From Diphasiastrum complanatum (taxonomy: Eukaryota; Streptophyta; Lycopodiopsida; Lycopodiales; Lycopodiaceae), in NCBI GenBank assembly GCA_029204225.1, contig CM055108.1:8109101-8173100 (forward strand): 64,000 nucleotides of DNA, written 5' to 3'. How positions within the stretch are numbered: the first letter of the stretch is position 1; each line of letters begins with the position of its first letter. The position numbers and the translations under genes are program-made. The notes under the pieces are model-generated. The model ran no database searches, was not told the origin of the DNA, and saw only the letters and a list, made by a program, of their open reading frames with translations. Of this stretch, positions 3,866 to 51,639 are shown in pieces.

Positions 3866-3994
3866 GGAGGCTCATGACACCTCCTTTGAGATTACTGATC
3901 CAAGAGTTTCTGGGCTCAATGCTACGACTGACTATCCTTGTATATATAACAAATTTATTTTTTTTTCAAATGCAATGTTCGGAGAACAAAAACA

Positions 3995-4540
3995 ATGTTT
4001 ATTTGTAAGGACTTGAGTGCTGATATAATCGTGGAGTTGTTGGATGATGGTTGGAATACAAAACAAAATCAGCAGGTTGAGTGCAGAGTATGTTACTCAT
4101 CCATGACATTTAGATATTACATCGAAAAACAAATGCTCACTTTGTTGCTGTATTATAGAAGATGGACTAAATGCAGAAATGTTTGGAAGCCACTTGATCA
4201 AAATTTTGGTATAAACCCTCAAGAGCAACTTCAGGTAACAGTGAAAAGAAATGACAACATTCTTGCAATGGTTGAGGTCGAGGAAGATTGATGTCTCAAT
4301 CACATTCGATCAGAACTAGACATGTTGCAATTCGATCTACCTCAGTACTATCAATTTCGATTGAATGGTATAAAGGTACGTTATGCCATATAAAAATATT
4401 TTTTTTTTCTATTTCTAAGTGAATCAGTTTCATAAAATATATTAAGTAAAACAATTTCTCTTGTGCAGGTAAGAGTAAGGCAGGAAGAACATATAAAATA
4501 CAAAGATATTGGAACATCCATCGAAATTGAAGATCCATAG
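3995..4540 (+). pseudogene. Family F protein, copy 1 (FVCK-type, unknown function)
   Basis: I do not recognise this protein. It starts with MFICKDLSADI and shares a long colinear match with copies at 46345-47723 and near 54130. Shared features are the FVCK/FICK start, a DxGW element, ECR...SSMxFRY, IEKQML and a WxPLDQ motif. The end of exon 1 (VEVEED...) continues across an intron (about 4374-4468, acceptor TTGTGCAG) to a short exon ending at TAG 4540. The C-terminal part (RFxLNGxxV...EexIKxKDIG) has the length and rhythm of a small beta-grasp fold, which is only a guess. A TGA at 4289-4291 replaces the Trp codon kept in copy 2. Exons upstream were cut off by the copia insertion. It converges tail to tail on the H gene downstream. 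Confidence 0.7.
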
Positions 4541-4563
4541 ATTATGAATTATGGAATTTTGTA

Positions 4564-5145: not shown

Positions 5146-7251
5146 TCAACTATCTATGATCTCTAAATCCATTTCTCCAATTGGAAGTAGCTTGGGTGGA
5201 GAACACTCTGCCACTACAACTGGATATGAATTTCGATCACAAGCTTTATGGTCTTCTGTCTGAAGTGCATTATCTCCATTGGGGAGACATTCGGGCATGT
5301 AAACTAAAAAAAACATAACATAGTTAAATTTTATTAATCAAAGACTAGTTATTAGGAATTTTATTATGAAAAAAAATACAAAAACACAATCAAATATTAT
5401 TAATCGAAGATTACCTCTTCCAGATTAGGAAGTCCATCATGTAGTGCGAGCCAATTGAAAAAGTGTTTGGCATTGCATACCGTATACCAACCACAACTTA
5501 CAGAATCAACCTACTGGGAAGACTGTAGTATCAAAATTTTAACATTATGAGATATCGGATCAACGGTGCAGGATGTTATAATAAAATCAACAATGAAAAC
5601 AAGCGTGTCTCGAATCGATATCCAAAAAATACTGTTTGAATATCGGATCAGCGCACACGATTTGAAAAGAAACCAAACAATAACTACAAGGGTGCGTCGA
5701 ACCGATATTGATAGATTTTTACCTCTGCATTTCAGCTTCGTATAGGCTATTGCATTTGGTACTAAAAAGAGTTCCAATATTTTTAGGATAAGGCTCTTGG
5801 CAATTTTGTGCATGTATGTGTAATAGAGTTCATCTTTAAACAAACTGAATTACACACACCGTCATCATTGACATATAAGGCCAACACATATAAGCTCCGA
5901 TGATCACTGCAATTTGAAAACAATAAATTTATGAGAATCAATGTGAAATCAAAATTCATATGAAAAATTGAACTTCATATAAAATCTAAAAAAAAATACA
6001 CTTACTTTGTTATGTATGGGAGCACGAGAATTGGAGTCCCTAGTCTGACGTATTGGAACATATCATCGTGCAAAATTTTGAAATCAGGGAAATCAAATGC
6101 AAAGCCATGAATTTAAGAGGAAACAATACTACATCTATAAAAAATGGGGTCTGGAAAAACTCCATCCAGTACTGAATTGCCCCACCTCCTACATTGTCAC
6201 CTAACATTTTATTCCTACTTTCTAATTCACCTATATCTAAATTAGAAAGGGGAAGACCAGCATTGGTCTTCAGCATCTTAAAACTGTATCTTGGACCTAA
6301 AGCTTTAAGATATGTATTCAACAATTGGTCATATTGTACATATTGAGGAGTATTTACAAAGGCAAGTGCAGGGGGTGACAGAAGTAATACAGATAAACCA
6401 CAAAAAAAATTGTCATTCAAAATTGATTCTACCTTTACATTAACAAAATCATCTAAATCATTTCCTGGAACAGGAGGTGGGGAGCTAATATTTATGGGGG
6501 TAGGAGGAGACAAAGATTTTGAAGGAAGAGGAGATTTATTAGGAGAGGAAGATCTAGCAGGAGAAGTTAATAATGGAGTTCTAGGAGGAGAAGAAGGAGA
6601 CTTAAGAGGAGACTTGGGAGGAGATTTGGGAGTAGATTGCCTAGCAGATATAATCTCATTTAGAGGAGATGGCTTTGAACAATCCCTCGCTTTATTAGAA
6701 GGCTCATGAGACCTCCTCTTCTTTGAAACACTCCTACTCTGTATACGAATAACAAGCTGAGATGGTTGAGATTGCTTTCGTTTTCTCCTCTCTAAATTTT
6801 GTTTTGGAGGAGAGGAAGTAGCATGTCTAAAGTACTCTGCAAATTTGTCATATATGTCCCGTAGCCTGAACACAATGTTGAAATCCTTGGGCATGATGGT
6901 CACCCTCTTGGCATGGACAGCTACAACAACAATATCTGAAAAAAACTTTACTTGGAAATCCTCATATGTAGTGTGCAACGTCTCTATTGCCGTCACAATA
7001 TATCTCACATCTGCAGATACACTTCTTGTAACCTGTCTGATGGATCTCTGTATGTGAGCTTTCGGAATCAGAAGATTATTTATCTTCTGTAGCTTTCAAA
7101 TATCCTTGAGCTAGGGTGGGTCTCGTCTTCTGCCCCTTGGCCTAGGAGGAGGTGGTGTTGGACGAGACGGTGGTGGTGCATTTCCCTGAACCCCTCTTGT
7201 GATTGGGATTCCACCAGGGTGGACTTGTGCTGTCTGCTTAGTCCGCGCCAT
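5146..7251 (-). pseudogene. Histone H3-like / Ulp1-like protease fusion (family H, copy 1)
   Basis: The start at 7251 gives MARTKQTAQVHPGG, identical to canonical H3 through A7. A Pro/Arg-rich stretch follows, then an H3 fold: QK..NLLIPK, an alpha-2 region at about 6920-7000, and HAKRVTIMPKD exactly as in H3. Next, in the same frame, comes a basic, SP/KSP-rich linker (about 6400-6800) with ERRKRK and KKRRS, which could act as nuclear signals. The C-terminal domain is a C48/Ulp1 cysteine protease. The exon end LVLPYITN splices (donor 6005, acceptor 5907) to DHRSLYVLALYV, which matches HWSL in copy 2, and the Cys motif SCGWYTVCNA lies at about 5470-5498. Damage: TAG 7111-7113, TGA 7096-7098, a frameshift near 6115, catalytic Gln codon turned to TAG (5511-5513), His-Trp now His-Arg (5897-5902). 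The last exon ends at TGA 5146-5148. The gene is dead, but both domains are clear. Confidence 0.83.
5551..5710. promoter_or_regulatory. Cluster of four CGATATC motifs inside a protease intron
   Basis: Four motif copies alternate in direction: 5551-5570 (GATATCGGATCAACGGTGCA), 5603-5623 (forward), 5639-5658 (reverse) and 5691-5710 (GGTGCGTCGAACCGATATTG). They lie between the His exon and the Cys exon of the H gene. Copy 2 has only a ~110 bp intron at this place, without the motif. An insertion of terminal-repeat DNA, or an internal promoter, would explain this. Confidence 0.6.
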
Positions 7252-7260
7252 TAGTATCCA

Positions 7261-7798
7261 ATATCGGAGCAGCGCGCGATGGAGGATAACTCAAGTTCAG
7301 AGGTCAGGTCGAGTGCGTCCAACCGATAGCTGGTAGCGGATGCATGCACGCAAGTAAAAGCTGATGGAAGGAACTTTGCTTTGAGCGCGCTGAATCGATA
7401 TCATATGGATATAGAGAGCAACAAGAAATTTAAGCAAAAAAATTTCAGCATCGTCTGTTTGTTTATATAGTGAAAATCTGAAATGATTGCAAACATGGTG
7501 GTTTGAATTACTTCGAGATATTCAGAGGCTTGTCAATCAAATCAAATTAATCAATCTTTCTTCAAAATGATTAGTCGATAATAACCACCATAATTAATTA
7601 AAACAAAAGTATGGTCACATCTACAATTTATTGCTGAAATTGACAAGGTTAATCGATAAATATCTAACATTTTTTTATATCCAATCATAATAATTTCGAA
7701 AAATTTCAACGGCCATAATTTCATCCAATAGCAAATCGACGTGCATATACTGAATGTGAAAAACAAAGAGGATATTCTCGCGCGTTGAACCGATATTG
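7261..7798. promoter_or_regulatory. CGATATC motif cluster upstream of the H3-like start
   Basis: Motif copies are at 7261-7280 (ATATCGGAGCAGCGCGCGAT, 10 bp from the H start codon), 7313-7330, 7385-7402 (GCGCGCTGAATCGATATC) and 7779-7798 (CGCGCGTTGAACCGATATTG). The same word recurs before the Y gene at 19694-20366. Placement at gene starts suggests a shared promoter or protein-binding site. The rest of 7400-7988 is AT-rich with no gene seen. Confidence 0.65.
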
Positions 7799-7988
7799 GA
7801 AGATAATATGAATAATCAAAGCTTAACTCGATAATTTCTCCTTAGTTGTGGACAGTATGAAGAGTCTATCGAATTAAGATTTGATCATGCAAAATACCCT
7901 CCAATAAATTCGAAATTTTTTCAAATCCCCCCCCCCTACAATAGTAATTCGACGTGCGTAGTCCAAGTGAAAAATCACTATCTTCTCC

Positions 7989-8799
<811 letters not shown>

Positions 8800-8800
8800 A

Positions 8801-8820
8801 TTTTGGCACCGTTGCAGGGG
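8801..8820 (+). other. Primer binding site of the gypsy element
   Basis: TTTTGGCACCGTTGCAGGGG directly follows the 5' LTR. It resembles the TGGCGCCGTTGCCGGGG-type site common in plant gypsy elements, with two changes. Confidence 0.7.
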
Positions 8821-10000
8821 AGCTACGCCAATTTTTCAGTTTGCAGCATGATTGTTGGATGGTTAGCTTGCATTAGGCATCTTGTCGTGACATGAATAGT
8901 GTTAGATCTGCATTTTAGGGTTAGTTTGGAATTGACTTTGCTTGATTTGAGTGGATTTGCTTGTTTGAAATATAATTTAACTGTTAAAATAGAAAAAGCT
9001 ATTCAGATCACCAATCTTAAGATTCATTTGGATTTGAGATATCAGAGAAAATAACAAAAATTGGTCAAATCTGTAAGATTTGGTCAAAAAGAGACAAAAA
9101 GCGTCACCAGAGCTTAGAACTTTTTACCCTCTTTCAAGAAACCTTCGTTGAGTTGCAGACACCTTCGATTTTGTTCACAAAACCTTCAGTTTGAAGGGCG
9201 AAGATTGATTCCCAGCAGATTTCTAGAAACATCAAAAAAATCGTCAAAAAATACCAAAAAATTATCAATACCTTCGTCCGATTCACTGTGCACAGGTGTG
9301 ATTCAGCTCTATCTATTGCCAGGTCGATGAAGAATAATACAAAAAATAGAAAGGATTTCAGAGGATCAGTTGTCATATTGTCATATTTTTGTCAAAAAAG
9401 TCACTTTTTTGCAAAATTACCAGTATTACTCTTGATCCTTTGCCAGAACCTTCGCTGAATTTTCAAAATTTTCTATTTATAATAAAATACTATTTTTGAG
9501 TTCGACGAAGATTCTTCTTGATCAGATCATAGAAAATCTTGAATTTTACTCTCGCCAACCATCAAAAATTATATTTTTTTGTGTCATAAACCTTCGTCCA
9601 TTTTTCCATAATTGTATATGTGTCAGATCTTTCACCTGAGAGGTCGGCGAAGGTTATTTCCCAAGAAATCACTAAAAAAAAAAATGTTCAGAGAGTTTTT
9701 TGTCCAAAATAGCACTATTGAACTTTCGTCAAGCCAATCTTCACCTAGTGAACCTTCGCCAGACCTATTTTAAGTTTCTGATTTTCTAGATCAAGTTTTT
9801 GTCAAAATTTGGATCAAATCTAATATATTTTGAATTGGATTATGAGAGAACAATATCGATTGATCGAATCTTGAAATTTTTTTCATGATATAGAATCACA
9901 TTATTGAAAAATGGAATAGATCTAGCAGATCTGATCTGAGATAGTTGTGATTAAAAAATCTAGATCCAATCTCATTGTCTGTTTAATCTAAATTTGTAAA
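8821..10000 (+). other. Gypsy 5' leader, non-coding, with CCTTCGYC words
   Basis: No coding region is seen. From 9120 to 9770 the words ACCTTCGYC and GRCGAAGGTT recur about ten times in both directions. The same words return after pol at about 16165-16370. They may be packaging or regulatory signals of the element. Confidence 0.55.
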
Positions 10001-11449
10001 GATGGCTGCCCTTGGAACTGCTCCATAGGAAGTCAATCCAATTATTGTTAGAAGAACATCCCATTTGGATCTACCCAAATATAATGGATTAACAGATCCA
10101 GTTAGATTTCTTTAGATATATGCTGAATCCTATGAAGTCTATGGTGAGATTTATCATCAAGATAAAATTAAGCTGTTTCCTTAACAGACGCAACACAAGA
10201 TTGGTACTATAACCCTTTCCTACTTTTAAGTAAAATTAAAATGGAAAAGCGGTATATGGTTCGAGATTACATTGAACGGGTGGAACGTCTTAGATCTGAA
10301 TGCAAACCTGAGCTGATTAACGAAAATGCCATGATTGTGTGGTTTTTGTCAGGTCTACCTAAACGGATTAGATGTGAGTTGAAATGCCATAATGAGTATG
10401 CACTCTTGCGAAATGCTATGGATGATGCAATTCAGGAGGAGGATAAAAATTCAGATGAGGAGCCAAATATCAGTATGTTGTCTTATACAGCAGAGCAGAC
10501 TACTACGACATCCACCACTATTGCATCAACAAATGCCAATGCTACTGTAGAAATGATGTTCAATGAGTTCGGGAAACTTGGAAAGAGTCAGAAGAAACAG
10601 ATGGAAAAGTTGCAATTGCAATTTGACGAGAAGATCAAAGCATTGGAGAATTTCCACGAGAAAGCAAACAAGGAAACTGAAAAGCTTGCAAAGACTTTTC
10701 CTACCAGGGAAAATGTCTAGTGTTCTATTTGTACAGGAAATCGCACAGTGAAAGAGTGTCCTCAATTGAAAAAACGAATGGAACTCAGTGTTTGCCATCT
10801 GTGTAATTCACCTGATCATGAGACTGCTTTTTGCAACTTCAACCCTCGGATAATTCAACAATGGTATGCCTAGATGGGATATCGAGAACCACAGTATGGA
10901 GGTAATCCAGCAGTAAGACCATGACAATCTGCTGGATACCCGAAACGTTTAGCTTTACCTGCCCCACCAAAGCACTCCGCTCCTCCTGCCAATTTGATGG
11001 AACTAGAACCTTACAGAAGTGCTGTACAACGGAACTATGGTAATGATCAGGAAGGTGGATATTCAGAACAATATGTCATTTATGTTGCCACTCAACAACA
11101 AGCTTCTAGAAATTGGACTAGAGCATCACTTGGATGCTTTGCATGTGGAGAAAATCACAAAGTTGTAGAATGTCCAAATAAAGATAAATTTGTACCATTC
11201 TGTCGTGACTGTGGTTATGGGCATTGCTATAAAGACTGTTCAGCAACACCAAAGCCACCACCAGCTACATCACTTGTAAATTTGATAACAATCAAGCAAA
11301 GACCAATAGCTCAGAATAAACCAAGTGCACCCTTGATGGTGGTCACCAGAGCACAGAAACAAAAAGAACCAGTACCTGCTGATTCTATACCATTGAACGA
11401 TACACCAACAACATCGGGAGTCTATTCAAATCTTAATACAGAAAAATGA
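10001..11449 (+). pseudogene. Gypsy gag with zinc knuckles
   Basis: The reading begins near ATG 10001 (MAALGTAP) and shows the gag pattern LPKYNGLTDPVRFL, but stops occur near 10026 and 10110. The longest open part (10241-10720) is helical and charged, typical of a capsid C-terminal region. Cys-rich modules follow at about 10720-10850 (CSICTGNRTVKECPQ, CHLCNSPDHETAFC) and 11135-11245 (CFACGENHKVVECP, CRDCGYGHCYKDC). These are nucleic-acid-binding knuckles of the nucleocapsid. It is broken by stops near 10720 and 10870. Confidence 0.85.
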
Positions 11450-11461
11450 AGATATCAGAAT

Positions 11462-12200
11462 ATGAGGCAGTGGATTAAACATTTGCAAGAAGAAGAGGAG
11501 CTTGAAGCTGCTAAATCAACAGCTGAAGTTCGGTCTTCACCATTGCAGCCTTCAAGAAATTTACGTACGGATATGAATGATCAGCTATATAATCTTGAAG
11601 AACCCTTCAAGATGACTGAACCAGAAGCATCACAAATAGAACTACTCATGAACATTTTGTCTAGTAAGTTTATCTCATTGGGAGAGTTCCTGAAGTTGGT
11701 GCCAAAAGCAAAAGAAGTCTTAGTGCAAAAGTTAGCTCAAGAAGAACCAGAAGTCCATTAGGAGCCACTTTTTTGTGCTGGATTTGAAGAATCTAACGAA
11801 GTACTCCATGTTGGAGCCACTTGGGAAAGTGACAAAAGAATATCACTCTGCTGATACAACATAGACAATTTTCTAAAGAAGCAGCCGTGATAGATGGCGG
11901 TTCAGGAGTTAACTTGATCTCTACAAAGCTATGTGCAAAATGGGGCCTTACAAAGATCAAACCTACTACTTTTGCTATTAAGCTAGCTGATCAAACGACA
12001 GTTCGTCCACGAGGAATGGTGGAAGATATACATGTTTGGATTGCAGGATTACAGTTCGTCATTACTTTTGTAGTGATGGACTTACCAGAAGCACCTAATG
12101 TTTACTGAGTTCTATTGGGACGTCCATGGTTATGAGTTGCGCAAGTAATTCATAACTGGGGTACCGGAAAAATCACTTTTGAAAATCGTGAACGTGCAGT
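11462..12200 (+). pseudogene. Gypsy gag-pol linker and aspartic protease
   Basis: The linker (11462-11760) contains LEEPFKMTEPEASQIELL; a close relative is encoded on the minus strand at 30424-30945. The protease starts near 11887 with IDGGSGVNLIS, in which the usual D-(S/T)-G reads DGG. It ends with LLGRPWL at about 12113-12135 after a TGA (12106-12108). Stops at 11759 and 12106 break it. Confidence 0.8.
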
Positions 12201-12234
12201 TAAAATTGATCCTACAACTTGGACAATCAAACCA

Positions 12235-13209
12235 GTGGTTCAAAAAGGGGATGACAATTCGTCAACAACGGATCGCACTTGTGACCAACCACAGAAAAAT
12301 TTGGGAGCTCATTACGATTCTCAAACAGATACGGTCAATTGGAATGAAGCTCTTGCAACGATTGATTGTATAGTAGGATATATGTGTCAACAAGATAATC
12401 AATCAGATTTGAGCGAGATTTCCTTATTAGATCAAACTTTGGATACACCAATCACGTCTTTACTAAATGTGCTGAATGTAGCCTGAATATCAACGGAACC
12501 TATACCAGATCTGATTGAGGATGAACTCATTCCTGTGAGTCATGCCTTGACTTATGATGGCAATGTAGAACTTATAGATGAGCAGATTCTAAATCATATG
12601 GATCCGACCAGATTTGGAGTGCGTAATGTTCCTGATGAACCAACAATCAAACCGCCCAAGGCAGTTATATTGAAGAAAGACAGGATCATAGGATCAATGA
12701 TGAAGAAACAAGCTAAGCAACATTATAATACGGTCCCGAAATGGGAAAATTTCCCTCGGAAGATTGATTCAAAGGAAGTGCCACCTTTATTGAATAAAGA
12801 CAAAGGAAAAGTCGAGGATGATTCTTCAAGTCAGATTTCTAGTAAGACATCATCATCTAGGAAGTCTTCACCTTTTAAGAAAGATTTATCATCTCGAAAG
12901 TCATCACCTCCACGATCAATTCCTGCTAAGAAGGCTAAACGAAGATCCAAGACAAGTCCTTTAAAAAAAGAACAAGCAAACGTAGTCCAGCATGATATGC
13001 CCAAGCATTTTAAACGTTATACACTGGATGATGTGGTTATCATGTTACCTAAAGCACATCGTGAACCTGAAGAACACATGCCAAAATCTAAAGAAGTTTA
13101 CGATGGCCCAGCTAAGACGCAGCCAATGAATCCTGCCGAGCCAGGAGAACCGGAAAAGATTGTACAAGTTGGATCACAACTTACTCTTGAACAGTATCAA
13201 GCACTCTGA
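12235..13209 (+). pseudogene. Gypsy protease-RT connecting region
   Basis: Open stretches 12235-12486 and 12535-13209 have no domain I know. The second is basic and Ser/Lys-rich (SSRKSSPPRSIPAKKAKRR near 12890-12950). It lies in order between protease and RT, and so probably belongs to the polyprotein. Confidence 0.6.
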
Positions 13210-14703
13210 TTGTTACTTATTAAGTATCAAGATTGCTCTGCATGGACTTATCAAAATTTGAAGGGTACTCCGACATCAGTGATTGAACATACCATACCTT
13301 TAGTATCTGATGCAGTTCCAAAGGTTACAAAGTTCTATCACTATAATTCTAATGTAGCAGATTTGATAAAGAAAGAACTTCAGAGATTGCTTGATGCCGA
13401 TTTTATTTATGAGATCGAGCATATTGAATGGATTTCACCGATTGTCATTGTTTCTAAAAAAAAATGGAAAATTGAGGATTTGTGTGAACCTCAAAGCGTT
13501 GAACAAAGTGACGTGGAAGGATCACTTTTTGTTACCTTTTATTGAAAGCATTTTGGATTGCCTTGCTGGAGCGGAAGCTTATAGTTTTCTGGATGAATTT
13601 AGTGGTTACAACCAGGTTAAGATCGCACCTACCGATCGCCACAAAACCGCTTTTACAATAGAATGGGGCACCTATGCTTACAAAGTAATGTCGTTTGGAC
13701 TCTGTAATGCACCAAGTTCATTCCAGAGAGTAATGCAATTTGCTTTTAAAGATTATCTACAAAAATTCCTTGAAATTTACTTGGACGACTTGGGAGTTCA
13801 TAGTACAGATACACACCACCTGGATCGATTGGAAAAAGTATTTGAAAGATGTCGCAAATATCAGATTTCTCTTAATCCAAAAAAATGTTAGATATGGGTT
13901 TCCCACAGAGTTGTGCTTGGACATGTGATATCAAAACATGGTATTGCCATAGATTATTCAAGATCAAAGTTATTGTGGAATTGCCATCGCCAGCAACAAT
14001 TCGTGGAGTTTACGTGTTTATGGGTCATGTGAAGTACTATCGAATCTTTATTATTTTCTTTGCAAATTTAGCACGACCTATATACAAACTGACTATTGTT
14101 CCTATTTGGACAGTAGAAGCGTTAGAAGCCTTTGAAAAATTAAAAAAAGCATTAATTTCAGCACCAATACTGCGTTCTCCAGATTGGACGATAGAATTTC
14201 ATGTTCATACGGATGCTTCAAAATACACCATTGGATCAGTTTTGACGCAACCAAGTGACTATAAGAAGGATTATCCTATATGATTTGCAAGCAAACAACT
14301 TACAGATCCAGAAAAGAATTATTCAACAATAGAACGTGAGGCATTGGCCATAATTTTTTCTATTCGAAAATTTCATCACTACCTCATGAAAAGGCACTTT
14401 TCATTTTATACGGATCATCAACCGATACTTTACTTGGTAAACAAGACATGCAATACTGGACATATTGCAAGATGGTTATCGTTATTGACTGAATTTGACT
14501 TTCAAATTGTAGTTCAAAAGAGGAAACAACATTATCTAGCCGATCACGTTTCGCGAATCGAATCCGCACCAGTTAACATTGAAGTGGATGATGAACTGCC
14601 AGATGCTGCGTTATTCTATGTTGAAGCAGTACCTGAGTGGGCAGCAGATATTGTTGAGTGCCTGATGCTAGGACAACCAAATGACTCCCCGACAAAAGTA
14701 TAG
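13210..14703 (+). pseudogene. Gypsy reverse transcriptase and RNase H
   Basis: RT motifs appear in order. WISPIVIVSKK is followed by a shift in an A-run near 13458, then LRICVNLKALN, YSFLDEFSGYNQ, MSFGLCNAPSSFQR and the active site YLDDLGVHS (about 13778-13805). RNase H follows at about 14200-14560 with VHTDASKYTIGSVL and TIEREALAIIFSIRKFHHYL. At least three lesions exist: a shift near 13458, TAG near 13890 and TGA 14281. It would have made cDNA from the element's RNA. Confidence 0.92.
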
Positions 14704-14739
14704 AAGAGACAATCGATTCATAAGGCTCAACCTTATCAA

Positions 14740-15840
14740 TTAATTGCAGGACAATTGTATCGTCGTAGATCATGTTTTCACATGATGCCATGAGTGGAGG
14801 ACACTTCTCTGTTTGCAAACTTTTACAATCAGGTTGTTGGTGGCCTACGCTTCACAAGGACACAAAATTTTATTCAAGCATGTGATGTTTGCCAGCGAGA
14901 ATGATGGCCTACTCGACATAACTATGAACCCTTGCATACGGTTTTATCACAAGCACCATTTGAAAAATGAGAACTAGATTATGTTGGACCTATTCACCCT
15001 GCTGCGCAAGGACCTTAGGCCCGATACATTATCATAGCAACTGATTTCATGACCAAGTGGGTTGAAGCCAAAGTTGTCAAAGTTGCTGATGCGAAATCTA
15101 CAGCCAAGTTTCTATATGAAAATATTATAATCAGATTTGGATGTCTGATCGAGATTGTCAGTGACTGGGGTACACACTTTGTTAGTCAAGCAATAAAGTG
15201 TTTACTGGAAGATTTTTTTGTTATACACAGATTTAGTACTCCCTACTATCCCAGAGAGAACGACCAAGCTGAATCTTCCAATAAGATTCTTTGCACCATT
15301 ATGACAAAGACAGTTGAAGCGAGTCGGTTTGATTGGAAACATAAACTGTATGCAACATTATGGGCATTCAGAACCGCTTACAAAAATAGTACAAATCAAA
15401 CACCTTTTCAACTGGTTTATGGTCAAGATGTTGTCATGCCGATTGAATTTTTAATCCCATCTTTATGCATAGCGGCCACAGAACGATTAAATAATGATAC
15501 GTCTTTACAACTCCATCATGAAGCATTGCACAAATTATGTGAAACCCGATTGATGGCAGTTCATGCCTTAGCAACAGAGAAAGCCCGCCGCAAGGCATGG
15601 CATGATCGCCGATTGCACAAAAAAGATTTGAAAGTAGGAGATCTTGCATTTATGTACAAAACCAAGCTGATCAAGAGAAAGTTGAAGTTTACCAAGGAAG
15701 GCCCGTATAAAGTGAAGAAAATCTTGAACTATGGCGCAGTAATTCTTGAGCACTTGGATGGAAAACTATTTGATACTCCGGTGAATGGCAGCCGCATACG
15801 CAAGTTTTGGCAGCCCGCTCCGCCAGTTCAGCAAGTTTGA
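14740..15840 (+). pseudogene. Gypsy integrase
   Basis: The zinc-binding HHCC region lies near 14760-14905 (CDVCQRE) with stops. The catalytic core follows: LDYVGPI, ATDFMTKWVEAK (first Asp), SDWGTHFVSQ (second Asp), and NDQAESSNK (Glu). A long intact frame runs 15049-15840 through the C-terminal domain (GPYKVKKILNYGAVILEHLDG). I see no chromodomain. The enzyme would insert the element's cDNA into host DNA. Confidence 0.92.
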
Positions 15841-16445
15841 TCTCGATGGTTTTTTAATTTTATTTGTTTTTCAATTTTTTGTTTTTCAGTACTTAATTTG
15901 CTGAGTTTTTTGGAAAAAGACAGTTAAAAAAAAATGTATTAAATTGAGAAAAGACTGATGAGCAAAAATCATAAAGTCATCAACATAGAAAAAGGAAGCA
16001 CAGTAATTTTTTGATGGAAAAGGACTTAGAAAATTACTGTTTTGGTCAGATTTAGCCTATTCAGTACCAAAAACCATTGCTGAGCTCTCAAACTGTACAT
16101 CCACTCTAGATTTATCTAATTTGAGGTGGGCGAGGTTCCTATCTAAAAAAATCTCAATTTTTGAGTCCGACGAAGGATTAGTGATATGCCATTTTGGAAA
16201 CCTTTGTCGAGCATCTTAACCTCATTATTAACCTTCGTCGACCTGTTAGATGATCTTAAAATGTCAAAATTAGGTTGTTCATAGGTTCAGGTCTTGGAAA
16301 AATACATTTATGACAGTACCTGGACGAAGGATCCTCCTGGGCGAAGGTTCATCCTTCGCCAGGCCTGGAAAACGTTCACCTGATAAATTCAGATTCCCAA
16401 AAACTTTCACCGAGATCTTTATACCCTATTACCACAGTACTATAC

Positions 16446-18810
16446 ATGCCTGCAAATTTTTGTTCAGAACTGATAAGCCAAACTAGTATTCAGTGTAATG
16501 GACCCACCAAATTCACCTATAAGTTGACTGAATTCGATTCATTCCTCACTTGTGCTAGTGAAGCTCTTGCAAATTTTTACCATGACCAAAGCCTTCCAAA
16601 ATTCCTACACTGCTTTCTGAGATACTTTTACGAGTTTTATATTTTCTTTCTGATCATCATGTCTTCTACCGATACTTCTCAATTTCCGCGCTATACTATC
16701 CATCGTGATGTTCCATCCGCAACGGACATCATGATCCTTCCTAACACAAGCATGATCACTCAGTGGATGACCCTTGCGGAGCCTCTGCTCACTGTAATGG
16801 GTATTCATGAGAGAGGCTTTTTTGGTCGCATCAATATGAAATTTATCACTCTTGCGTTCAGTACATGGAAGGAAGAGAAATCTAAATTTTTTCACTTTCT
16901 AGGGAGCCACACACAAGGTGCGCGTCACTGAGGCCACCCTTGCAGCTATAGGTATAGCATCCGGCACACAGGCCTCACCCAATCACAAGCATGCCAAACA
17001 TGCCATCAAGCCATATATTGACCTCACCAACGATCTGCACTGGACCAATACGGCTACCTTCTGAAAGCCATCATTGAGCCTTCAATCCACACTGCTACCT
17101 AGTTACTGAACAACTTCCTGATGGTTGGCAACCTCAAGAAAGACCGCATCACATCACAGATCCTCCATAGAATAGTGGAGTCCCACACCAAGTTGGCCAA
17201 GGCCCCTCTTGAATCATGTAATTGGTTCAAGACTGTTTCTGGTGAGCTCAAACGAGCTATTAAGGCTAATACTAAGCAGCAGTTCACTGTTGGCTCTTTA
17301 TTGTCCCTTTTAGCCGTTTCACTTAGAAAATAGAATCCATGGCTTCCACCTAGATTCCGTGCTTTCGGTCTACGAAGAAGCACTAACAGAGTCATCTCAC
17401 CAGGCCTCGAGTTCTCATAGTCGTCATCGTCTATGCAGCAAGATCGTTATTCCTGACTCACCTTCTACGTCACGATGTCGCACTAGGCATACCTCGTCAA
17501 CTGCGCTTCCACCCCCTACTGTTGTTCGCACTGAACTTCCCATTCCCCCAGCCTCTGATGCTTCCCTCGCCTCTGCTTCCATTCAAAGACAGTTTGTGAC
17601 CATTGGGCCTACCATTCCCATCACAGCTGCCCAGGCCGCCTCACCCCCACACACCGAAGCCACCTCACCAAACACACAATTCTTTATGGATATGTTCGAT
17701 GATTCCAACCCCCTTGGGGCCACCAAAAATTTTGAAATGCCCCAGAGCCCTGCGCTTTTTGAACTCCAATCCCCTAGAAGAGGATTCAGACATATCCATG
17801 AATCTACTGTTGGTGTTGAAGATGTTAGCCAACAACCTCACACGGAAGATAGCACAACCGCACTTCGAGTCGACATGGCTGTGAAATCACCGAAACAGTT
17901 CGATGTCACAGTGCCTGAGAGATTTGAAGAGGAGGACATTTTTGAACAAGAAGAACTAGTGGCACCTATTCCACGCCTACCAAGGACAATACCATCAGGT
18001 CCTCCTGCTACTGCCACCTCCATGACCGTCGATTCTGGTGATACTCTAGGTTTGGTTTCAAGCCTTGCGCAAGTGATCCAATCTATGCTGGATAAGAAGA
18101 AGAAAATGGAACAGAGAATCTCCGAGATGAGGTCCTAAAACACTCTGATCAACCAGAAAATTGTCTAGTTGGATCGAGAGTTAAAGATTGCCAAACAACA
18201 TGAAGACAAGGCTGAAGCCGAATTGAAGTTGGCCTAGCAACAAGCTGATCACTTGGAAGACTACATCAGCTCCCTGCAAAACACCCTGAGAACCTCACAG
18301 GATCAGGTGGATAAGGCCGTGCAGGATGCAAAGCAACAGGTGCAGCTGCTGAAGGGTCAATTACAGATGGCCGAACAAGATCGCATGTGGCTTCAAGGTG
18401 AGTTGGATGCGACCACACTTGAACGTGATGCGTATCTTCAAACACAAATACCAGATCATCCGGTCGCATCGACGGAGATTGCGTATTTGTTCAAGAAAGT
18501 GGAGACATACAAAGTGGCCCTTCAGAGATTTCAAGGCCACTTTGACAGGTTCAAAGGAGCAGCTTTAACCGAGTTGGCAAAGGCTAAGGAGACCATCATC
18601 ACCTATGAAAAAGCAACTGCTCAAGGGTTAAAAGCCAGATCACAAATCCCCATACCGGTCATGCTGCAAAGATCAGTTGCCGGTTGCTCATTTATATTTT
18701 TGTGCGGCAATGATGGGAGGCTCCTGAGGATCACGCTTCACATCATGGACAACCTCCAAGTGGATTGCCGGAGCCCACCGTTGTTTTCTGCCACACAATT
18801 TGGATTTTAA
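16446..18810 (+). pseudogene. Extra ORF3 of the gypsy element, coiled-coil protein
   Basis: Downstream of pol and before the 3' LTR lies about 2.3 kb of coding-like DNA in several open pieces. The first (MSSTDTSQFPRY near 16660, then VRVTEATLAAIGIAS near 16920 in another frame) recalls the retrotransposon-associated domains often found in plant genomes. The middle (17359-18138) is Pro/Ser-rich and acidic. The end (18253-18640) is a long heptad-rich coiled coil (QQVQLLKGQLQMAEQDRMWL). Related 3' ends occur at 31208-31417 and 39158-39388 (minus). The function is unknown. A structural or envelope-like role is often proposed for such ORFs, but no membrane segment is evident here. Confidence 0.6.
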
Positions 18811-18941
18811 TACTGCATGCCTCGACTTTATGGAGAAGTGCAGTACCATTTAATCAAGTTTCGGCGCGAAGTTAATAAAAGTCCCCAATAACTGCATATT
18901 GCAGGTGTCGTGGGACCTCCACCAATTTTGGTGGGGGATAC

Positions 18942-19692
18942 TGTTGGAGGGTTTGCGGATCCCAAGGCAACCCTAACCCTAGTTAATAAGTGAGAGGGAT
19001 TTGGCACCCTGCGTGTGTAAGTCCAACCTGATGATCACATAGTTATTTGATTGATTAGTTAAAAGTCAATAGAAGGACTTTAGGCCTTTTTGTGGGACTT
19101 TTAATGTCGTAGGGCCTAAATGTCAAGTTAGTGAATAAAGTTTGGTTTCCCTCCAATTTTGATGGTTCCCACACTTTTTTAAATTTGAATAAAAAGAGAG
19201 GCAAGACTGGACCAATAGGATTTAGAGGCCAGGGTCCTCCTCTCTACTATAAGAAGGGACCAACTCGAGTTGCTCCTCATGTTCATTTCCTCATTTCAAT
19301 AAAGCAGATTGGTTCTCTTCAAAAATGGATTGATGAATGTCCTTGCTCTTCTTCCTTCTCCATCTCTCATGATTTTTTTGGATTTTGCTAACTATTGGAT
19401 CTGAATATTATTGGGATTGAGTGTTATTATACTTTTTATGAGAGAGAAAGAGAGAGAGAGAGAGAAAGAGTAAGCTATCTTTGTTGTGGATCGTAGTGTT
19501 AATGGATCTTAGTCTTAATGAGTAGGGTTAATGGATGTAGAGTTAGATTTAGATCTTCCATTCATGCTGAAATCTGAACTAAACTATCGCTCTCATGGGA
19601 ACGAACCTACGCGTGACAACTAACTCCGTCTCTATGATGCTAGATTGACTAGATCTTGGATTCAGGTTAGGCAAGGAAAGAAACCCTCCACA
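18942..19692 (+). repeat. 3' LTR of the gypsy element
   Basis: It runs from TGTTGGAGGG to CCCTCCACA, perfect TG...CA ends with a 9-bp inverted repeat. It follows a purine-rich tract (TTGGTGGGGGATAC, 18928-18941). Length is 751 bp. Confidence 0.92.
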
Positions 19693-19693
19693 A

Positions 19694-20366
19694 GCGCGCT
19701 GATCTGATATCTGAGATGCCCTAGATCTATATTGAAACGCATTATGAATGCCTTATGAAAATGTTTTGAATGAACAACATCTCAAAAGAAAAAATCTCGT
19801 CTTTACGGTCCTTAAATAGGACGAGAGTTTGTAATGATTCTCCTCGTACACGTTTTTCAATGTTGTCCATTTAATATTTGTTTATTATTTGTTTAATGAT
19901 GATTCGGTGAGGCTAGTGATAGACTATTTAATGTATTCCGGTGCAGGAACAAATTCTAGGATCAGAGCTAATGATGATTTGTAAAATCTAGTGATAGACT
20001 ATTTAATGTATTCCAGCATAGGTACAAATTTGTCTCACTCTGATTGGTGGATAAATATAGGCTGTGTACCTCAATTCATTATTTGACAAATGTATGGCTG
20101 TGATCAATAGGTATTCTCTATATTTTGATTCTACGATCTTTCATTCTGAACTCACTAGTCATTTTGTTTTCTTTCTTTCTCGAGATATCAAATCGACGTG
20201 TGCCTTCCCATACAGTGCACGGTCGGATTCATTCAGGCGCGCTGAATCAATATCATTCTCTTCTGATGTGTGCTTGCAAAAAATTTCATTCTCGTCCTAA
20301 CGATATCAGATCAACGCCTGCACTGTGTTCTACCGATATCATTTTGTCGCGTTGAACCGATATCAG
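19694..20366. promoter_or_regulatory. CGATATC motif cluster upstream of the Y gene
   Basis: Motif copies are at 19694-19711 (GCGCGCTGATCTGATATC), 20184-20204 (reverse), 20237-20254 (GCGCGCTGAATCAATATC), 20302-20321 (reverse), 20331-20340 (half) and 20346-20366 (GCGTTGAACCGATATCAGG). The last ends 8 bp before the ATG of the Y gene. If the gypsy element were absent, this cluster would lie next to the one before H (7261-7798), making one divergent H/Y promoter. Confidence 0.65.
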
Positions 20367-20373
20367 GTTCAAT

Positions 20374-21913
20374 ATGGCTAGTTCCACCATGTCCTCAGAT
20401 AACAAACTTCTGGATTTTTTGAATGTCTGTGACATTCCATCTGAGAAATTAGAGTATTTTGCGAGTATTTTTTTTGCTCCCTTCGATATCGATAAACTAG
20501 TTTACGAAAATCGTTATAATGTGATTTATTAGCTTGATAGTTTTTCTCACATTATTAGTACTCTTGTTTTGGATATAGATAGTTTTCGTTTTGTTCATTT
20601 TCAGGACCTTGTGCATTTCCAACCATCTTCTAAGCATAAACACAATAGAAAGTACTCTAACCTACATGACCATTTCAAAAGAAATATATATTGTGATATC
20701 CACAAAAGAATATGTTGTCTTATAATCAAAGGAATGGCTTTTGTCTTTTACATATCTGTTGAAATTCCAGATGATGAGTCTGTTAAATCTTCAACTGTTC
20801 CATTGATCGGAGCATCTGCACCTGCTCCAGTTGATGTAGATGATGCAGATACTGATATAGGGGTTGAAGTTGAAGCATCTATGGCTTCAGATTATCAAAA
20901 GACTCTTTCTCGTTCTATAATCCTCTCTGATTCTCTTCCATCTGCATCTCCTGTTAATCAATTAACTCTACTCGATGTTCCCTTATATTTCATAAATAAT
21001 GAAAGTTATATTTCATTTAATGATATAGAAGATGTTTTGAATTTGAAAGAGGATGAAATCCTCTCAATTTTTTCTCAAAATTTATCAAAATTTTTTGACA
21101 TTGTTGATTACACATATGATGACCTTGAAAGTGAGATGGATTATGATAAAGATGGCAATTGGAAATCTAGCAATGAGGCCTTGGAGGCCATGATTGAAAA
21201 ATCTAAAGCCTATGAAAAAACTTTGCCTACAGAGGAGGAATTTTTGGAATTCCAAAAAAAATATCCCCCAAGGGTTAGATATATCCCCTCCAATAGAGGC
21301 CATCGGAGGACATGACATTAGTAGAGCAAACGTCATTGAATAGGATGATTATGATCTGGTACGTAGATATTATATTGGTATTGATATTGTTCAATTTTCT
21401 TATTTCAAACACTGTGTTAAAGTATGAGTTTGCAGTGTTATGTATCATTCTAATTTTTTTTTTTCTCGTTTACAAGATGCTATTGAAATTGATGCCTTTG
21501 GTATGAGACATGGAGGCGTCTGAGATGTATCAGCTGGGAGAAAGGATGTGTCTCTATCTCATTATTTGAAAAACTTTCAAAATAATGAGATTTGTATATA
21601 TCATTCATCTCTTAATCCATATGCAACCATTGTCATTATGGCCATCAAATCATTATCAGTTTGTTTAGGAGGCCATAATTACGCAAGAGGAACATATAAA
21701 ATAATTTTTGTGAAAAGGGATTTGGCTATTAAGATATTGGGTTATACTCCCAATGAGACTACAAAAAGATCATCTGCAATGGCCCTTTATTCGGGTTACA
21801 TTGATATGAGCAAAAGGAAAAATTTAAAAATTTTGGATCCATATGAAAGGAGATTATTCCTTCATGACAATACCATTCGCCTGAATCTTGAAGAGGATGA
21901 TGAAGATAATTAA
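20374..21913 (+). pseudogene. Family Y protein, copy 1 (unknown, acidic, two exons)
   Basis: I do not recognise the family. The start MASSTMSSDNKLLDFLN (ATG 20374) parallels MASSSGSTRDTSLSAFLLN in copy 3 (51640-53140, minus). Both share LEYF..(L/I)F..P, DLVHF.P, (V/L)P(L/V)Y(F/Y)IN, an acidic EDE(I/V)L segment and LP(T/S)(E/D)EEF..FQ. An intron of roughly 130 bp separates the second exon (about 21465-21913). Its shared features are LQDA(I/L).ID.F, LxHYLxxFxxNEICI.HS, LGGH and KIIFVKRDL. Lesions are TAG 20530-20532, a shift near 21290 and TGA near 21522. It converges on the T gene. No catalytic motif is visible; a structural or DNA-associated role is possible. Confidence 0.65.
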
Positions 21914-21962
21914 AGAATTTTCTGTACTAGACTTTTGATATATTACAAGGATCTCTCTTTTG

Positions 21963-23060
21963 TTATGAATTTGAATGCCTTTCAAAATATCGTAATACTT
22001 GACGAGTTTTTAGCTTGATATCTAAATTGTGCTCTTCTATAAAACCACTGAAAAAGTTGAAATAAATATTTATTTCTTGATTTGTGTCCTCCATGATTTG
22101 TTGCTCTATGAAATGCTCCCTTGCTTGCCAATGAGATTTTTCCATGCCTTGTGATGAACAAATACTTAAGCTCCCATATTCCTTTGCAAAATAAGTTGCA
22201 TGATGAAGAAGGACGTGCTACAAACAATAGTTTTGATTAGTTATATCAGTAAAAAAAAATATAAGCCTGAATGAGAAAAGTACCAGATAATGATATAGAT
22301 TAGCAGCATGTAAAGAGTAACTTTGTCTTTTCCCCAACAATCATGTACAAATTTTATAAATGTGGAGCAATGATTTTGCAAAGTCCTCATGTCTTCTGAT
22401 GATAGGTTTTCTTTCCTGATAACACCTATGAGTTTGTCTAAGTTGGTCCACACTTGTCCCTTTTCCACTCGATTACTTCCTTCCAGTGTTTGTGTGGCTT
22501 GAACAATTTCTCTCCAAATTTCGTATCTAACACTTGATTCTTTGCATGTGTGATTGGATAAGAATCTTCTTGCTTTAGCACCTCCAATTGATGACTTATT
22601 TGGAACGTTTCTTTTTTTCTCGGAGAGTCTGTCACTTTTTTCAATCGTGACATTCCCTTTATGTAGTCTTGCATTTGACAGAACTATTTCCAACCTCCTA
22701 ATTGCTGCTTTAGCCACAGACTCCAGTTTATGATTCCATGCTAGTAGAATATGTAGGTAAATAAGTTTTTCAATAATACAAACCTTGGCATGCAATGTGC
22801 ATATGTGAACATTTTTTAATGGAATTGGCAGAACACTTTTTATATTTGGATCTTCAGCTTCTCGTGTTGGGCCAGTGTTTGTTGATCGTCCCAAATTCAT
22901 ATTGTAGCAATCCTTCATGCAATAAAGACATGGATGCTTTGATGTCGTCCCATGAGAGACATTATACATACATTTTAATGTCTTCAAATCCCTTGCAACG
23001 TGCCATTGAATTTAAAAACTTCCATGGTTTTCGACTGTAAATTTTAAAGACCTATAGAGA
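21963..23060 (-). pseudogene. Family T transposase-like protein, copy 1 (C-terminal half)
   Basis: The minus strand encodes DLKTLKCMYN, then KHPCLYC, a helical region with LHAKVCIIEKLIYLH and GGAKARRFLSNHTCKESS, an intron of roughly 60 bp, and SLSICSSQGMEKSHWQAR followed (one frame over) by FQLFQWFYRR. These match copy 2 (40895-43582) motif by motif. The set of two Asp sites, a zinc knuckle, a helical insert and a late Glu (GMEK) fits a DDE transposase with an inserted domain, by inference. The N-terminal half was lost where a copia LTR (23093) cuts in. It shares a tail-to-tail arrangement with the Y gene. Confidence 0.7.
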
Positions 23061-40894: not shown

Positions 40895-43582
40895 ATGGAA
40901 ACAAAATGCCACTTGCATGTGAACTTAGAGAAGGAGTATTCCACAACCAAAGCTGCATGGGGTGTTAACCTGAACTCATACAAAATGCATTGTTGGAGGT
41001 TAAAAGGAATGAAAAATATCGATCTATGGGTAAAAGGTGATTTGTATCCACCTAATCCATTGACCAATATTTCTCCTCAATTTTGTGATGTACATAGTTT
41101 GTTAAGGTTCGTTGGTGATGGTGCCAACGGACTTCTTGGCTACTGTCAAGTTATGGATTCTCGAAGAATCCAAGCTGAAATGCTAGCGAATAGTGAAAAC
41201 ATTCATATTACATACATGAATGAGCAATTAAAATCATTGCAACAAACAAATCAGACATTGGCTAAAGAGATAACAAATCTAAAATTAGAGCTCACCAGAT
41301 CTGTCACAAAGTTTGAAGAATTGCAATCTTCAAACATTAGTCTTCAAAAGATATTATATGGATTCTAGCGAAAGCGTTGAGTCTCAACGGATGACCAATC
41401 AAAAGACAATATTAAAAGGTGCAAACTAGATGCTCTGACACCAACAGGTGGTGGTGCTAGTAAAAGACACAAGAGATTGATGAAAGAATTTTTGAATAAC
41501 ATGGTCGGAGATCATTTCCAAAGCACCAAACATATGAAGCAATTCATGAAGGGTAAAGATTTGATGCAGATTGTGGAAAATGAAACGAGTGATTCATTCT
41601 GTTTAAAGATTGCAAAAAGACTTGCTACTAGGTTTTCAACCGAATCCAAATGTTAGAGAGATAGTTTATGCATGTGATCAAGGAGGTGTGAGTCGAAAAA
41701 GATATAGAGCATTGAAAAAATTTATGAAGAAATCTGACCAAAACGGATTGAAACGACATCAAATATTACCTGCTTACAAATTTCTTCAAGCTACAAAGCG
41801 AGAATGCAATTCATTCATAGAAAATGAATTAGGTGAATTCTTCCATATTTAGGATACTTTTAAAATATCCAGCAAGAAAAAGGGATCTATTGTTCGTTTT
41901 CATTATAACCAATACAACAATATATTTTTGGATCTAGAAAAGGTCCAAGCAATGATGATATGACATTACAATGTCAAAAGAGATGGTGAGTTTGTTTCAC
42001 AACAATTTCAATTATTATTTTTCTATTTTTCGTAAGCAACAATTATTGTGTGTATGTTATTTACAAAAATTTGGTATTGCAGATATTGGAGGCAAAGCTA
42101 TATTTGTCATTAAGTTGGATGAAGCGGAGATCGTAAAAGATCGCAAACTAGAACATGTCACAATCATGTTGATGAACCAAGCATTGCAGGAGTCAACCAG
42201 AAGTGAGTCCAATAAATTTAGTGTGCAATCCGAAAATTATATATGGTGGATAACTGCATTTGAAGTTCATAAAGAGACCCACGATGTGTTGAAGTGGGTA
42301 TTTGAATGATGCAACATATCCAAGGTAATACAAGCACAAAATGGAGGAGAATTGCTAAGTGTTGATGGGCAAAATTTTACTATGGAATTGCACTTAGCTG
42401 TCGATTTGAAGACCCTAAAATGCATGTTTGGTTGCGGGCTCGGTGCGAATGTCAAACATTTTTGCATATATTGTATGTCTGAAAGAGGCCGAAATAAAGG
42501 TGTGTTGCATTGCAACCAACGAGTTCCACCAATCAGGCGCAATCCAGACAAAGCATGGAGTCCCGTATTAGAGATTCCTTCCATTTTTGCACGATGCATG
42601 GTGAATTGCGGATATTGGACAAGTTGTTATATTTGCATTGTTGCTATGCATGGAATATGCAACCCAAATCACGCGCGGATGTTAGCATTCGAGATCTAGA
42701 GATAGTGTTATCAGAAATGGGACTTCACGGAGGCCATGTGAATCTTTTCCAAGAACGTTTAGTTGAGTGGAAAAACTCAAGACTTGCCGGCAAAAGTTTC
42801 CATGGGGGGCACAAAAGCAAGGCATTTCTTGTCAAATCATACTGGACAAGAAAGTAGTCTTCAATGGGAGTATTGGAAGAGAGTGTGTGAATGCACAACA
42901 AATATTGGCTCAGATCCCCGTATGGCTGCCACACGTCCAAAGGTGTGGCAAGCATTTGATGCTTTGTCACTGACTATCAATAAAAAAGACTTGGTTATGA
43001 TAGATATCAGACGGAAGTACAAGCATTCACTCGATTGATGATTGATGCATGGGGAGAAACACACATCACTCATTATATGGTCAATGTTTTGTCTTTATTT
43101 TTTCTTTGTAAGTTCTATCCAAGTGAAATGTACTAATTGGATTCTTTTGCAAACAACAAATTTTGTACGTTCATGGACCTTGGTTTTTAAAGACATATGA
43201 ATCATTGGCTTTTTGGAATACCCAAGGGATGGAGAAGGGCCATTATAGGGCCAAGGCTGCGTATTTCAAAAATTCAAGACACGGTGGAGGTAAAGGTCTT
43301 AGCAATGCCTTGGTAGAGATATTTCGGTGGTTTTATAGAGGAGTTTTGAGAAGACAAAACATCGAAGAAACACGGGCTCGAGGGTTGACTTCAATGATAT
43401 CTTCATTAAATTTAGCCAGAAGAGCCGCTTGGAAGTCATCCACAACTAATGCAAGGCATAGGAAATGGAAGATGTCTCGGGTTCGTGTAGGAAAGCAGTG
43501 GGTTCCTCGGCAAAGAACATCCAATGAAGAGGATGGCATTTCAGAAATAGCACACAATGAACAAACAGAATATGTTGCATGA
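40895..43582 (+). pseudogene. Family T transposase-like protein, copy 2 (most complete)
   Basis: The start METKCHLHVNLEKEYS is at ATG 40895. A coiled coil (EQLKSLQQTNQTLAKEIT) lies near 41220-41350, then GGGASKRHKRLMKEFL and a globular part YACDQGGVSRKRYRALKKF. After a probable intron come FVIKLDEAEIVKDRK (candidate first Asp, 42118-42120), LAVDLKTLKCMFG (second Asp, 42403-42405), a CIYC knuckle, a helical insert (ELRILDKLLYLHCCYAWN; GGTKARHFLSNHTGQESS), an intron near 43085-43160, and QGMEKGHYRAKAAYF (candidate Glu, 43232-43234) with FRWFYRG. The order resembles transposase-like proteins seen in animals and plants that I cannot name with certainty. Stops near 41368, 41850 and 42307 and several shifts make it inactive. 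It would have moved the element, by inference. Confidence 0.68.
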
Positions 43583-44534
43583 CTTGCAACATATCCTCGG
43601 CTTACGAGAGGACGAGATGTTGGTAGGATTAGTGAAATTGCAAAATGGCACCAACACCTTTGACCACTCAATGCCAGACGATACATTTTGACAGCTGATT
43701 GGAGATGACACAAATACTACTGAGCAAGCTTTGGCAAAAAATTTGTGTGAACTGGAGACTCTGCAACCACCGGAGGTTGAGCATAAACAATTTGGAAAAT
43801 TACCGATTGGCACAACTGAGATGCCATATAGAGGCCACAGAATTATCCTTGCAAAAAGCGAGAATGAGGATGAAGGATCTTAGGCAAGTTCTTTGTCAAC
43901 AAATATTCTCATCCATGCTTATTCCCATTTCTTAATCTGTTCATTATAATTATAACATTCCTATATAATGTATTTCAGTATGCGGTGGAGATTGACAATT
44001 TTGCAATGAGGAGCGGAGGTTCTCGTGAGGACCGAACAGAGCGAAGGCCAGATGCATCCCTGGCATACTACATTGGACAATTCCCTGAAAACTATATCTT
44101 CTGTTTCAGCAATGTGTATAGTCCTGATGGGCCCACTGAGCTGGTCAAGTGCAAAGCATTTTCCAGATGCTCCACTTTCACAGACTACACCAAAGGCCTA
44201 CTGTGTACGAAGGAGCGCTATCTTGCACAACTTCTGCTCGAGGTTTGAGTCCAGATTACTTCTGGCCTTTACGGTTGGACCTTATGAGGAGCATACTGAT
44301 GCTGCTAAGTTAGCATCGGAGTTACTGAAGCCAACAATAGGACTAGAAAATAGATCAGAGTCACTGTTTGAAGCACTGGCAAATGTAAAAGAATTTTAAA
44401 GGAAATTGTATTTTTTTTTAAAAATATTTCACTTCAAATTGCATGCATTTGAAAATTTCATTCATTATGGTAGGTTTTAAAATTTTCTACCAATCATCTA
44501 AATCTAAGGGCATAAAAATGCCATTTTGAATTTC
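43583..44534 (+). other. Unassigned stretch between T and H of copy 2
   Basis: The Y gene expected here by comparison with copies 1 and 3 is not found. Open frames 43985-44248 and 44025-44399 (plus) have no domain I know, though ILAKSENEDEGS near 43850 could be a tail of the T protein. Confidence 0.4.
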
Positions 44535-44705
44535 AAACGACCCCTCTCCGCGCCCTTGTCTGATTTGCATGCAAGGGGGCGGAGAGGGGCCATTTGGCCA
44601 GGTCAAACACCCTGCCTCCGCGCCCTTTCGTGCAAATCACGCAAGGGTGTGGAGGGGGGTCGTTTGACCCGGTCAAACGTCCTTTGGCCATGCCCTTGCA
44701 TGCAA
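44535..44705. repeat. GC-rich double hairpin
   Basis: Two inverted repeats follow each other. The first is CCCCTCTCCGCGCCCTTG (44541-44558) with CAAGGGGGCGGAGAGGGG (44572-44589). The second, related, runs from about 44616 to 44662 (CCTCCGCGCCCTT with AAGGGTGTGGAGG). GTCAAAC words lie between and after them. Base composition is far richer in GC than the surroundings. It sits where the histone half of the H gene is missing. Confidence 0.7.
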
Positions 44706-51480: not shown

Positions 51481-51639
51481 ATACGGAAAGAGAGAAATTA
51501 GATGATTGTCGAGTAGAAGATAACAAAGACATTTAGTCATCATTGTCATCAAATCATGACAAGTTTAGAATTGCTTGCAAATTCATGGAACAAGAGAGAG
51601 GAGCAATAGTCAATATAAATGTATTTATTTTATAATAAC

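Follow-up and report, generated by a model that had tools for sequence, protein, structure and literature searches.

A decayed gene joining histone H3 to a Ulp1-type protease

We analyzed a stretch of 64,000 nucleotides from Diphasiastrum complanatum (contig CM055108.1, positions 8,109,101 to 8,173,100 of the forward strand), hereafter called the window. Its minus strand carries a mobile-element gene that joins histone H3 to a C48/Ulp1-type protease. A sequence-only reading had claimed this fusion at 5146..7251; the analysis confirmed it and found the fusion in at least three families. The proposed span does hold the fusion gene but is too narrow, as the whole element is larger.

The window gene (5214..7251, -) is decayed and consists of four exons, whose frames and splice borders were read directly. 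Exon 1 (7251-6006, -) and exon 3 (5522-5415, -) were defined by frame reading, and the limits of exon 2 (5906-5723, -) and exon 4 (5303-5214, -) were partly inferred. Splice borders were read for intron 1 (6005-5907, -), intron 2 (5722-5523, -), and intron 3 (5414-5304, -). This exon plan is identical to that of an intact relative, L037/L040. The gene starts with an H3-like N-terminal tail (7114..7251, -) beginning MARTKQTA, in which direct reading showed K4 to be kept and K9 to be replaced by V, a pattern shared by relatives. The histone H3 fold (6829..7110, -) follows, and then a linker (6463..6828, -) that proved on direct reading to be basic and Ser-Pro-rich, as had been described. The Ulp1/C48-type protease domain (5214..6462, -), recognized by frame reading, contains a His box from 5906, an Asn (KMNS), and a Cys box from 5510.

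The frame of the window copy is not open, because two in-frame stops (7113-7111 and 7098-7096) separate MARTKQTA (7251) from the fold. The H3 start reported earlier is in the same frame as the fold, but these stops close the frame in this copy. Likewise, the single frame said to extend over more than 1 kb holds from 7251 to about 6118 but is broken by a frameshift near 6115. The other marks of decay are HR in place of HW and a stop before the Cys box.

The histone H3 part

The H3 fold in the window gene is beyond doubt. The open reading frame at 6040-7095 (-) matched PF00125 at 9.6e-13 (48.9 bits, cutoff 26.4), so that the profile check suggested for the H3 part was significant. A phmmer search of the PDB with the window H3 returned 182 distinct sequences at E<=1 (best 5.9e-13); among the 60 of these listed, 59 were annotated as histone H3 or one of its variants, and the remaining one as 'histone domain-containing protein'. 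Canonical H3 aligned to 7110-6859 with a score of 161, whereas the highest score among 20 shuffles was 49; the alignment crosses one of the two in-frame stops. With the same cutoff, PF00125 scored 87 bits in L037, 82.9 bits in L041, and 73.1 bits in L010.

We refer to the family of the window copy as the D family. Eighteen D-family copies were fetched, 10 kb each; they are not all independent, as three pairs (L009/L012, L018/L019, and L023/L024) are near-identical and L025 is the copy on contig C1475. K4 was kept in all 17 readable tails (L016 has no tail), and position 9 was V, G, or R in the same 17 and never K. Position 9 is D in L037 and A in L041, both of which keep K4 and R8. A tail with K9, a feature of canonical H3, was absent from the D tails, L037, and L041. 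GG at tail positions 12-13 agrees with canonical H3. The loop KRVTIMPKD is kept in the fused families read. K9 may be lost simply because the tail no longer serves as a tail.

The protease part

In the window copy the His box (5906 on), the Cys box VDSVSCGWYT, and the end piece of the protease lie on separate exons. The C48 ending with His and Cys motifs claimed earlier is present as boxes, but these are split among exons, the His box reads HR rather than the HW of most readable relatives, and Pfam and PDB searches with the joined window copy gave no protease match. The window protease is too decayed for a profile match, and its identification therefore rests on relatives. The L037/L040 protein matched PF02902 at 7.9e-9 (36.1 bits, cutoff 20.7) and PF00125 at 1.5e-24, so that the suggested search with PF02902 succeeded in an intact relative and in the same protein as the histone match. 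The best PDB match of the L037 protease part was yeast Ulp1 (1euv, E 0.0026). A hand-assembled D-family blend did not reach PF02902 (16.9 bits, cutoff 20.7), and the protease half of the L041 first exon alone gave no Pfam match.

His boxes were readable in 12 of the 18 D-family copies, with His in 11 and Asn in 11 of them; Cys boxes were also readable in 12, all with Cys. The pattern search behind these counts is biased toward well-preserved boxes. The HW box, the Gln six residues before Cys, and the Cys-Gly pair (L037) resemble yeast Ulp1 and the plant ESD4-type SUMO proteases (C48), from which the fusion differs by H3 in front of the protease and by Asn in place of the catalytic Asp. His, Gln, and Cys are present, and Asn stands at the Asp position in the D family, L037, and the second window copy described below. 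Judged from sequence, this Asn would be a mark against full protease activity. In a review of plant ULPs, one passage allows Gln or Asn and another gives His-Asp-Cys for ESD4/ELS1 (PMC11371177). A direct repeat of the last protease exon lies downstream of the gene (window 4616-4690 vs 5231-5305, 76% identical) and was also seen in L010 and L011.

Fused copies in three families

The genome searched comprised 1.74 Gb in 5176 contigs. The window open reading frame gave 116 scored matches among 11092 first-look candidates. The listed D-family matches have a query start of 45 or less (inside the H3 fold) and an end of 310 or more (in the protease), in one frame with stops read through. Eight listed matches had no internal stop, two of which were the window copy and its near-identical counterpart on C1475. 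D-family copies occur on each of contigs C1-C24. Contig C1475 carries near-identical copies of both window elements and is probably a haplotig of the window.

An intact copy joining both domains, of the kind that had been proposed as a check, is present in the same genome: L037/L040 is an intact fused gene that encodes 491 aa and has three GT-AG introns of 107, 112, and 100 nt. The L037 fused exon gave 119 scored copies among 9623 candidates, again in one frame with stops read through, and 26 of the 119 listed copies, between-contig duplicates included, had no stop in the fused exon.

A second copy in the window (44668..46000, +) contains linker and protease exons. As had been noted, linker and protease are present in it, but it belongs to a family other than that of the window gene and no H3 part was found; its first 3' splice site reads as mutated. 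In a shuffle test its His box scored 75 against at most 53, and its Cys box 66 against 48. Its protease piece gave 150 scored matches among 4169 and led to L041, a fused member of the same family: the open first exon of L041 encodes 372 aa with H3, linker, and the N-terminal half of the protease, matching PF00125 at 2.9e-23. Exon 1 has a common end point in D, L037, and L041, ahead of the catalytic His. The fusion is thus carried by at least three diverged families, whose H3 folds are 39-55% identical.

Median pairwise dN/dS was low in the protease half (0.34) and the H3 fold (0.38) and higher in the linker (0.80). The sample was 9 of the 18 fetched copies (first-exon frame >300 aa), with 34-35 usable pairs of 36; since pairs share history, these values are support rather than a p-value test. 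More than 100 one-frame copies in each of two families, together with dN/dS, rule out a chance juxtaposition of H3 and protease, and the fused copies rule out that the two are always separate genes. Neither of the outcomes named beforehand as contradicting the fusion, parts that are always separate or the lack of an H3 match, was found.

The same data bear on whether the gene is a passenger, assembled in a single capture of host H3 and Ulp1 fragments and copied since then without serving any function. Capture of gene fragments is common in plant transposons (PMC13317346), and most listed copies contain stops. However, the domains show lower dN/dS than the linker, the fusion and its exon plan are kept across families this far apart in the H3 fold, and more than a fifth of the listed L037-family copies (26 of 119) are stop-free in the fused exon. 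We consider a mere passenger very unlikely.

Relationship to host and centromeric H3

Canonical H3 gave 154 matches in the genome. Thirteen were 97-99% identical over the whole length and were taken, from sequence, as host H3; nine partial matches were 79-93% identical. The remaining listed matches were 44-57% identical, and six such places (L034-L039) were read. Five of them (L034, L035, L036, L038, and L039) are H3-like genes with long Pro-rich N-termini and the loop KRVTILPKD, and no fused protease was seen in the fetched stretches. The frame ends right after the fold in four of these five H3-only genes; that of L034 reads on. An X2-like gene (X2 is described below) seems to lie antisense and downstream in L034.

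In the H3 tree the fused H3s formed one clade (support 96) and two H3-only representatives a separate clade (support 99). The simplest interpretation is a single fusion event that predates the split of the families. The transposon H3s fell with CENH3s, split from canonical H3 at 94-96, in a small tree with inner nodes of 50-66, long branches, and provisional reference sequences. Like CENH3/CENP-A, they are divergent H3s with a variable tail that group, weakly, with CENH3 in the tree. They are unlike CENH3/CENP-A in the fused protease, in being a multicopy transposon gene, and in loop 1, which is longer in CENH3: its length equals that of H3 in D and L041 and is one residue longer in L037. Pairwise scores favoured canonical H3 for L037, L034, and L038 and were mixed for D.

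These relationships would matter if the H3 part, akin to centromeric H3 through kinship or convergence, tethered the transposition machinery to a chosen chromatin type, with the protease as an accessory that clears SUMO at the target. The grouping with CENH3s (split 96 and 94 in two trees), the CENH3-type residues LLIP, RWT, ED, and KDF seen by eye, and the L041 match above the cutoff of the CENP-T histone fold (PF15511, 29.1 bits, cutoff 28.1) point this way, and retrotransposon targeting to CENH3 chromatin has been reported. However, support for the place among the CENH3s is low (50-66, on long branches and with provisional references), D and L041 lack the CENH3-like longer loop 1, the pairwise scores lean to canonical H3 for L037, L034, and L038 with a mixed result for D, and copies occur on each of contigs C1-C24. 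Such integration targeting seems rather unlikely.

The element around the window gene

Comparison among copies revealed a single element that comprises 3954-7988, with H3-Ulp1, and 19691-23045 and is split by a Ty3-type LTR retrotransposon (7989..19692, +) with LTRs at 7989-8799 and 18942-19692. Both flanks of the Ty3 belong to one element because copies without the insert join them. The LTRs are up to 95% alike. A target-site duplication of the Ty3 insertion was looked for in the window and none was seen; a simple insertion with target duplication was set aside, as no duplication is visible.

The gene order of the element is X1, X2 on the opposite strand, a divergent promoter, H3-Ulp1, and Y on the opposite strand. 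The H3-Ulp1 side of the promoter is the upstream region at 7252..7988, with TATCGRTTCRACGCRC-type motifs; the X2 side (19693..20370) has the same motifs and is joined to the H3-Ulp1 side in Ty3-free copies. X2 (20371..21910, +) is acidic and without a Pfam match. The C-terminal part of X1 (22000..23045, -), with DLKTLKCMYNVSHG..HPCLYCM and no Pfam match, is regarded as a candidate transposase solely because of its size, position, and Cys/His motifs. A part of Y (3950..4288, +) contains Cys, is convergent with H3-Ulp1, and has its best Pfam match below cutoff. A Pfam scan of ten X1, X2, and Y open reading frame pieces gave nothing above cutoff. An AlphaFold model of one X1 piece had a mean pLDDT of 43.6 and was set aside. 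Both ends of the element are visible in the C10 copy and its near-identical C13 twin, as imperfect inverted repeats starting CATTAGGG about 9.2 kb apart; no target-site duplication was recognized at these ends.

In the second window element, X1 and X2 lie at 41607..44396 (+) and Y at 46584..47021 (-). Fragments of X1, X2, and Y from a third related element occur at 51223-52727 and 54026-54205, where no H3-Ulp1 gene was recognized.

Large DNA viruses contain both Ulp1-like proteases and histones, and the sequence-only reading had offered, beside a counter-silencing deSUMOylase, a protease that matures a particle. The protease would then process a polyprotein of a virus-like element, Polinton-like or derived from a giant virus, whose histone packs DNA. 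However, the ten element pieces scanned contained no capsid, polymerase, or ATPase match, the gene is spliced, the element measures about 9.2 kb, and viral contigs yielded no relative of the window open reading frame or of a five-sequence alignment in a search that used few short patterns. A viral origin was rejected, as nothing was found among the viral contigs with these queries; particle maturation is without support here, and we regard it as highly improbable.

Motif arrays in the promoter and intron 2

The motif TATCGRTTCRACGCRC, allowing up to two mismatches, occurred at 114 sites in the 18 D-family copies, compared with a mean of 0.0 in five Markov replicates; the sites are not independent, because the copies share descent and some are near-identical pairs. 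All 114 lie at -2250 to 0 or at +1500 to +1680 from the H3 start. The upstream stretch lies between the starts of X2 and H3-Ulp1 in the window, C8, and C5 copies, where X2 was mapped. The downstream stretch is intron 2 in the window copy, in which a motif cluster occupies 5553..5707. No TATCGRTTCRACGCRC site was found in L016. A longer form of the motif, allowing up to three mismatches, had 10 sites in the window, where 0.22 were expected. Seven of them lie in 4712-7795 and two in 20235-20362, whereas the tenth, at 31343, falls outside the element. Of these, the one at 4712-4729, with three mismatches, is weaker and lies downstream of the window gene. The motifs occur in either orientation and often form opposed pairs with a spacing of about 50 bp.

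Another noncoding array, whose units of about 70 bp carry GTTTGACC inverted pairs, may be family-specific. It was observed in the second window element (window 44533-44711), where it lies between X2 and the protease, and next to the H3-only genes, at L034 1080-1159, L035 1000-1070, L036 1034-1113, L038 1031-1092, and L039 1247.

Comparison with known systems and possible function

Few transposon proteins are known that fight silencing. The element resembles the KIU (Kaonashi) non-TIR MULEs and the VANC-bearing VANDALs of Arabidopsis in being a DNA transposon with a Ulp1-type gene beside other genes. KIU genes are described as VANC genes with a Ulp1 domain whose role is said to be unknown (PMC13317346), and VANC21 as binding a short motif that forms arrays, in the same orientation, in introns and in intergenic and terminal noncoding parts of VANDAL21 (PMC5735166); these arrays are also treated in PMC10398659. 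As in the VANC/VANDAL system, the motifs are concentrated here in a promoter and an intron. The element differs from KIU and VANC in its inverted termini, in histone H3 as the partner of the protease, and in motifs that point both ways. The MULE transposase domain was not found by Pfam in the X1 pieces, a weak result as the pieces are broken. The tested features do not place the fusion protein in the VANC/KIU family.

In grapevine, Ulp1 has been described in CACTA and MULE families (PMC2528002). The present element shares a Ulp1 domain in a DNA transposon with inverted termini with such CACTA elements (grapevine Cactavine, rice), but its termini start CATTAGGG.. instead of CACTA, and the X1 pieces gave no Tnp2 match in Pfam. 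The word histone is absent from the main text of the Cactavine paper (PMC2528002). Among the papers listed in searches of an open full-text library, we found no H3-Ulp1 fusion and no transposon-encoded H3.

We infer that the fusion protein is a chromatin-bound deSUMOylase that counters silencing, working like the VANC and KIU proteins. This is the best reading, at a probability of about 0.5, and of the two functions proposed earlier it is the one that fits best. It builds on four observations: the fused gene itself, the number of its copies, dN/dS values that are lower in the two domains than in the linker, and the motif setting. The H3 part would pair with H4, so that the protein would enter chromatin; a histone would thus act in place of, or in addition to, the sequence-specific DNA binder of the VANC/KIU type. 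The motif arrays of the element are a possible site of entry, where X1, X2, or Y would serve as the DNA-reading partner; this tie between fusion protein and motifs is putative. The protease, if active on SUMO, would strip it from silencing factors at the element, and an H3 tail without K9 could not receive H3K9 methylation, the mark by which plant transposons are kept silent. The divergent promoter would then stay open, and the element would gain by being expressed and moved.

With an H3 variant of its own, joined to a SUMO-type protease, a transposon would be an example of a parasite that changes the nucleosome itself. The fusion suggests that such an element may remake chromatin by which it would be silenced. 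Because one genome holds many natural copies, both intact and decayed, the case can be tested directly. In a bolder and less probable form, the element would build the nucleosomes of its own promoter from a private H3 that has K4, lacks K9, and carries a SUMO-stripping protease, which would be the first transposon-encoded histone system. If so, the element would make its own chromatin, and the H3-only genes would represent the same idea with the protease apart.

An action away from the element is also conceivable, in which a dominant-negative or scavenging histone titrates H4 or H3 chaperones and the protease averts its SUMO-directed degradation. A divergent H3 that keeps the KRVTIMPKD loop in the fused families read (KRVTILPKD in the H3-only genes) is consistent with this, but the motif arrays and the kept fusion would be left unexplained, and we think it unlikely.

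Two further features were observed in the window. A Neprosin-domain frame lies at 34197-34985 (-; PF03080, 6.1e-59), and 58609-63572 (-), with VARLMGL and DUF4378 motifs, is a likely host gene.
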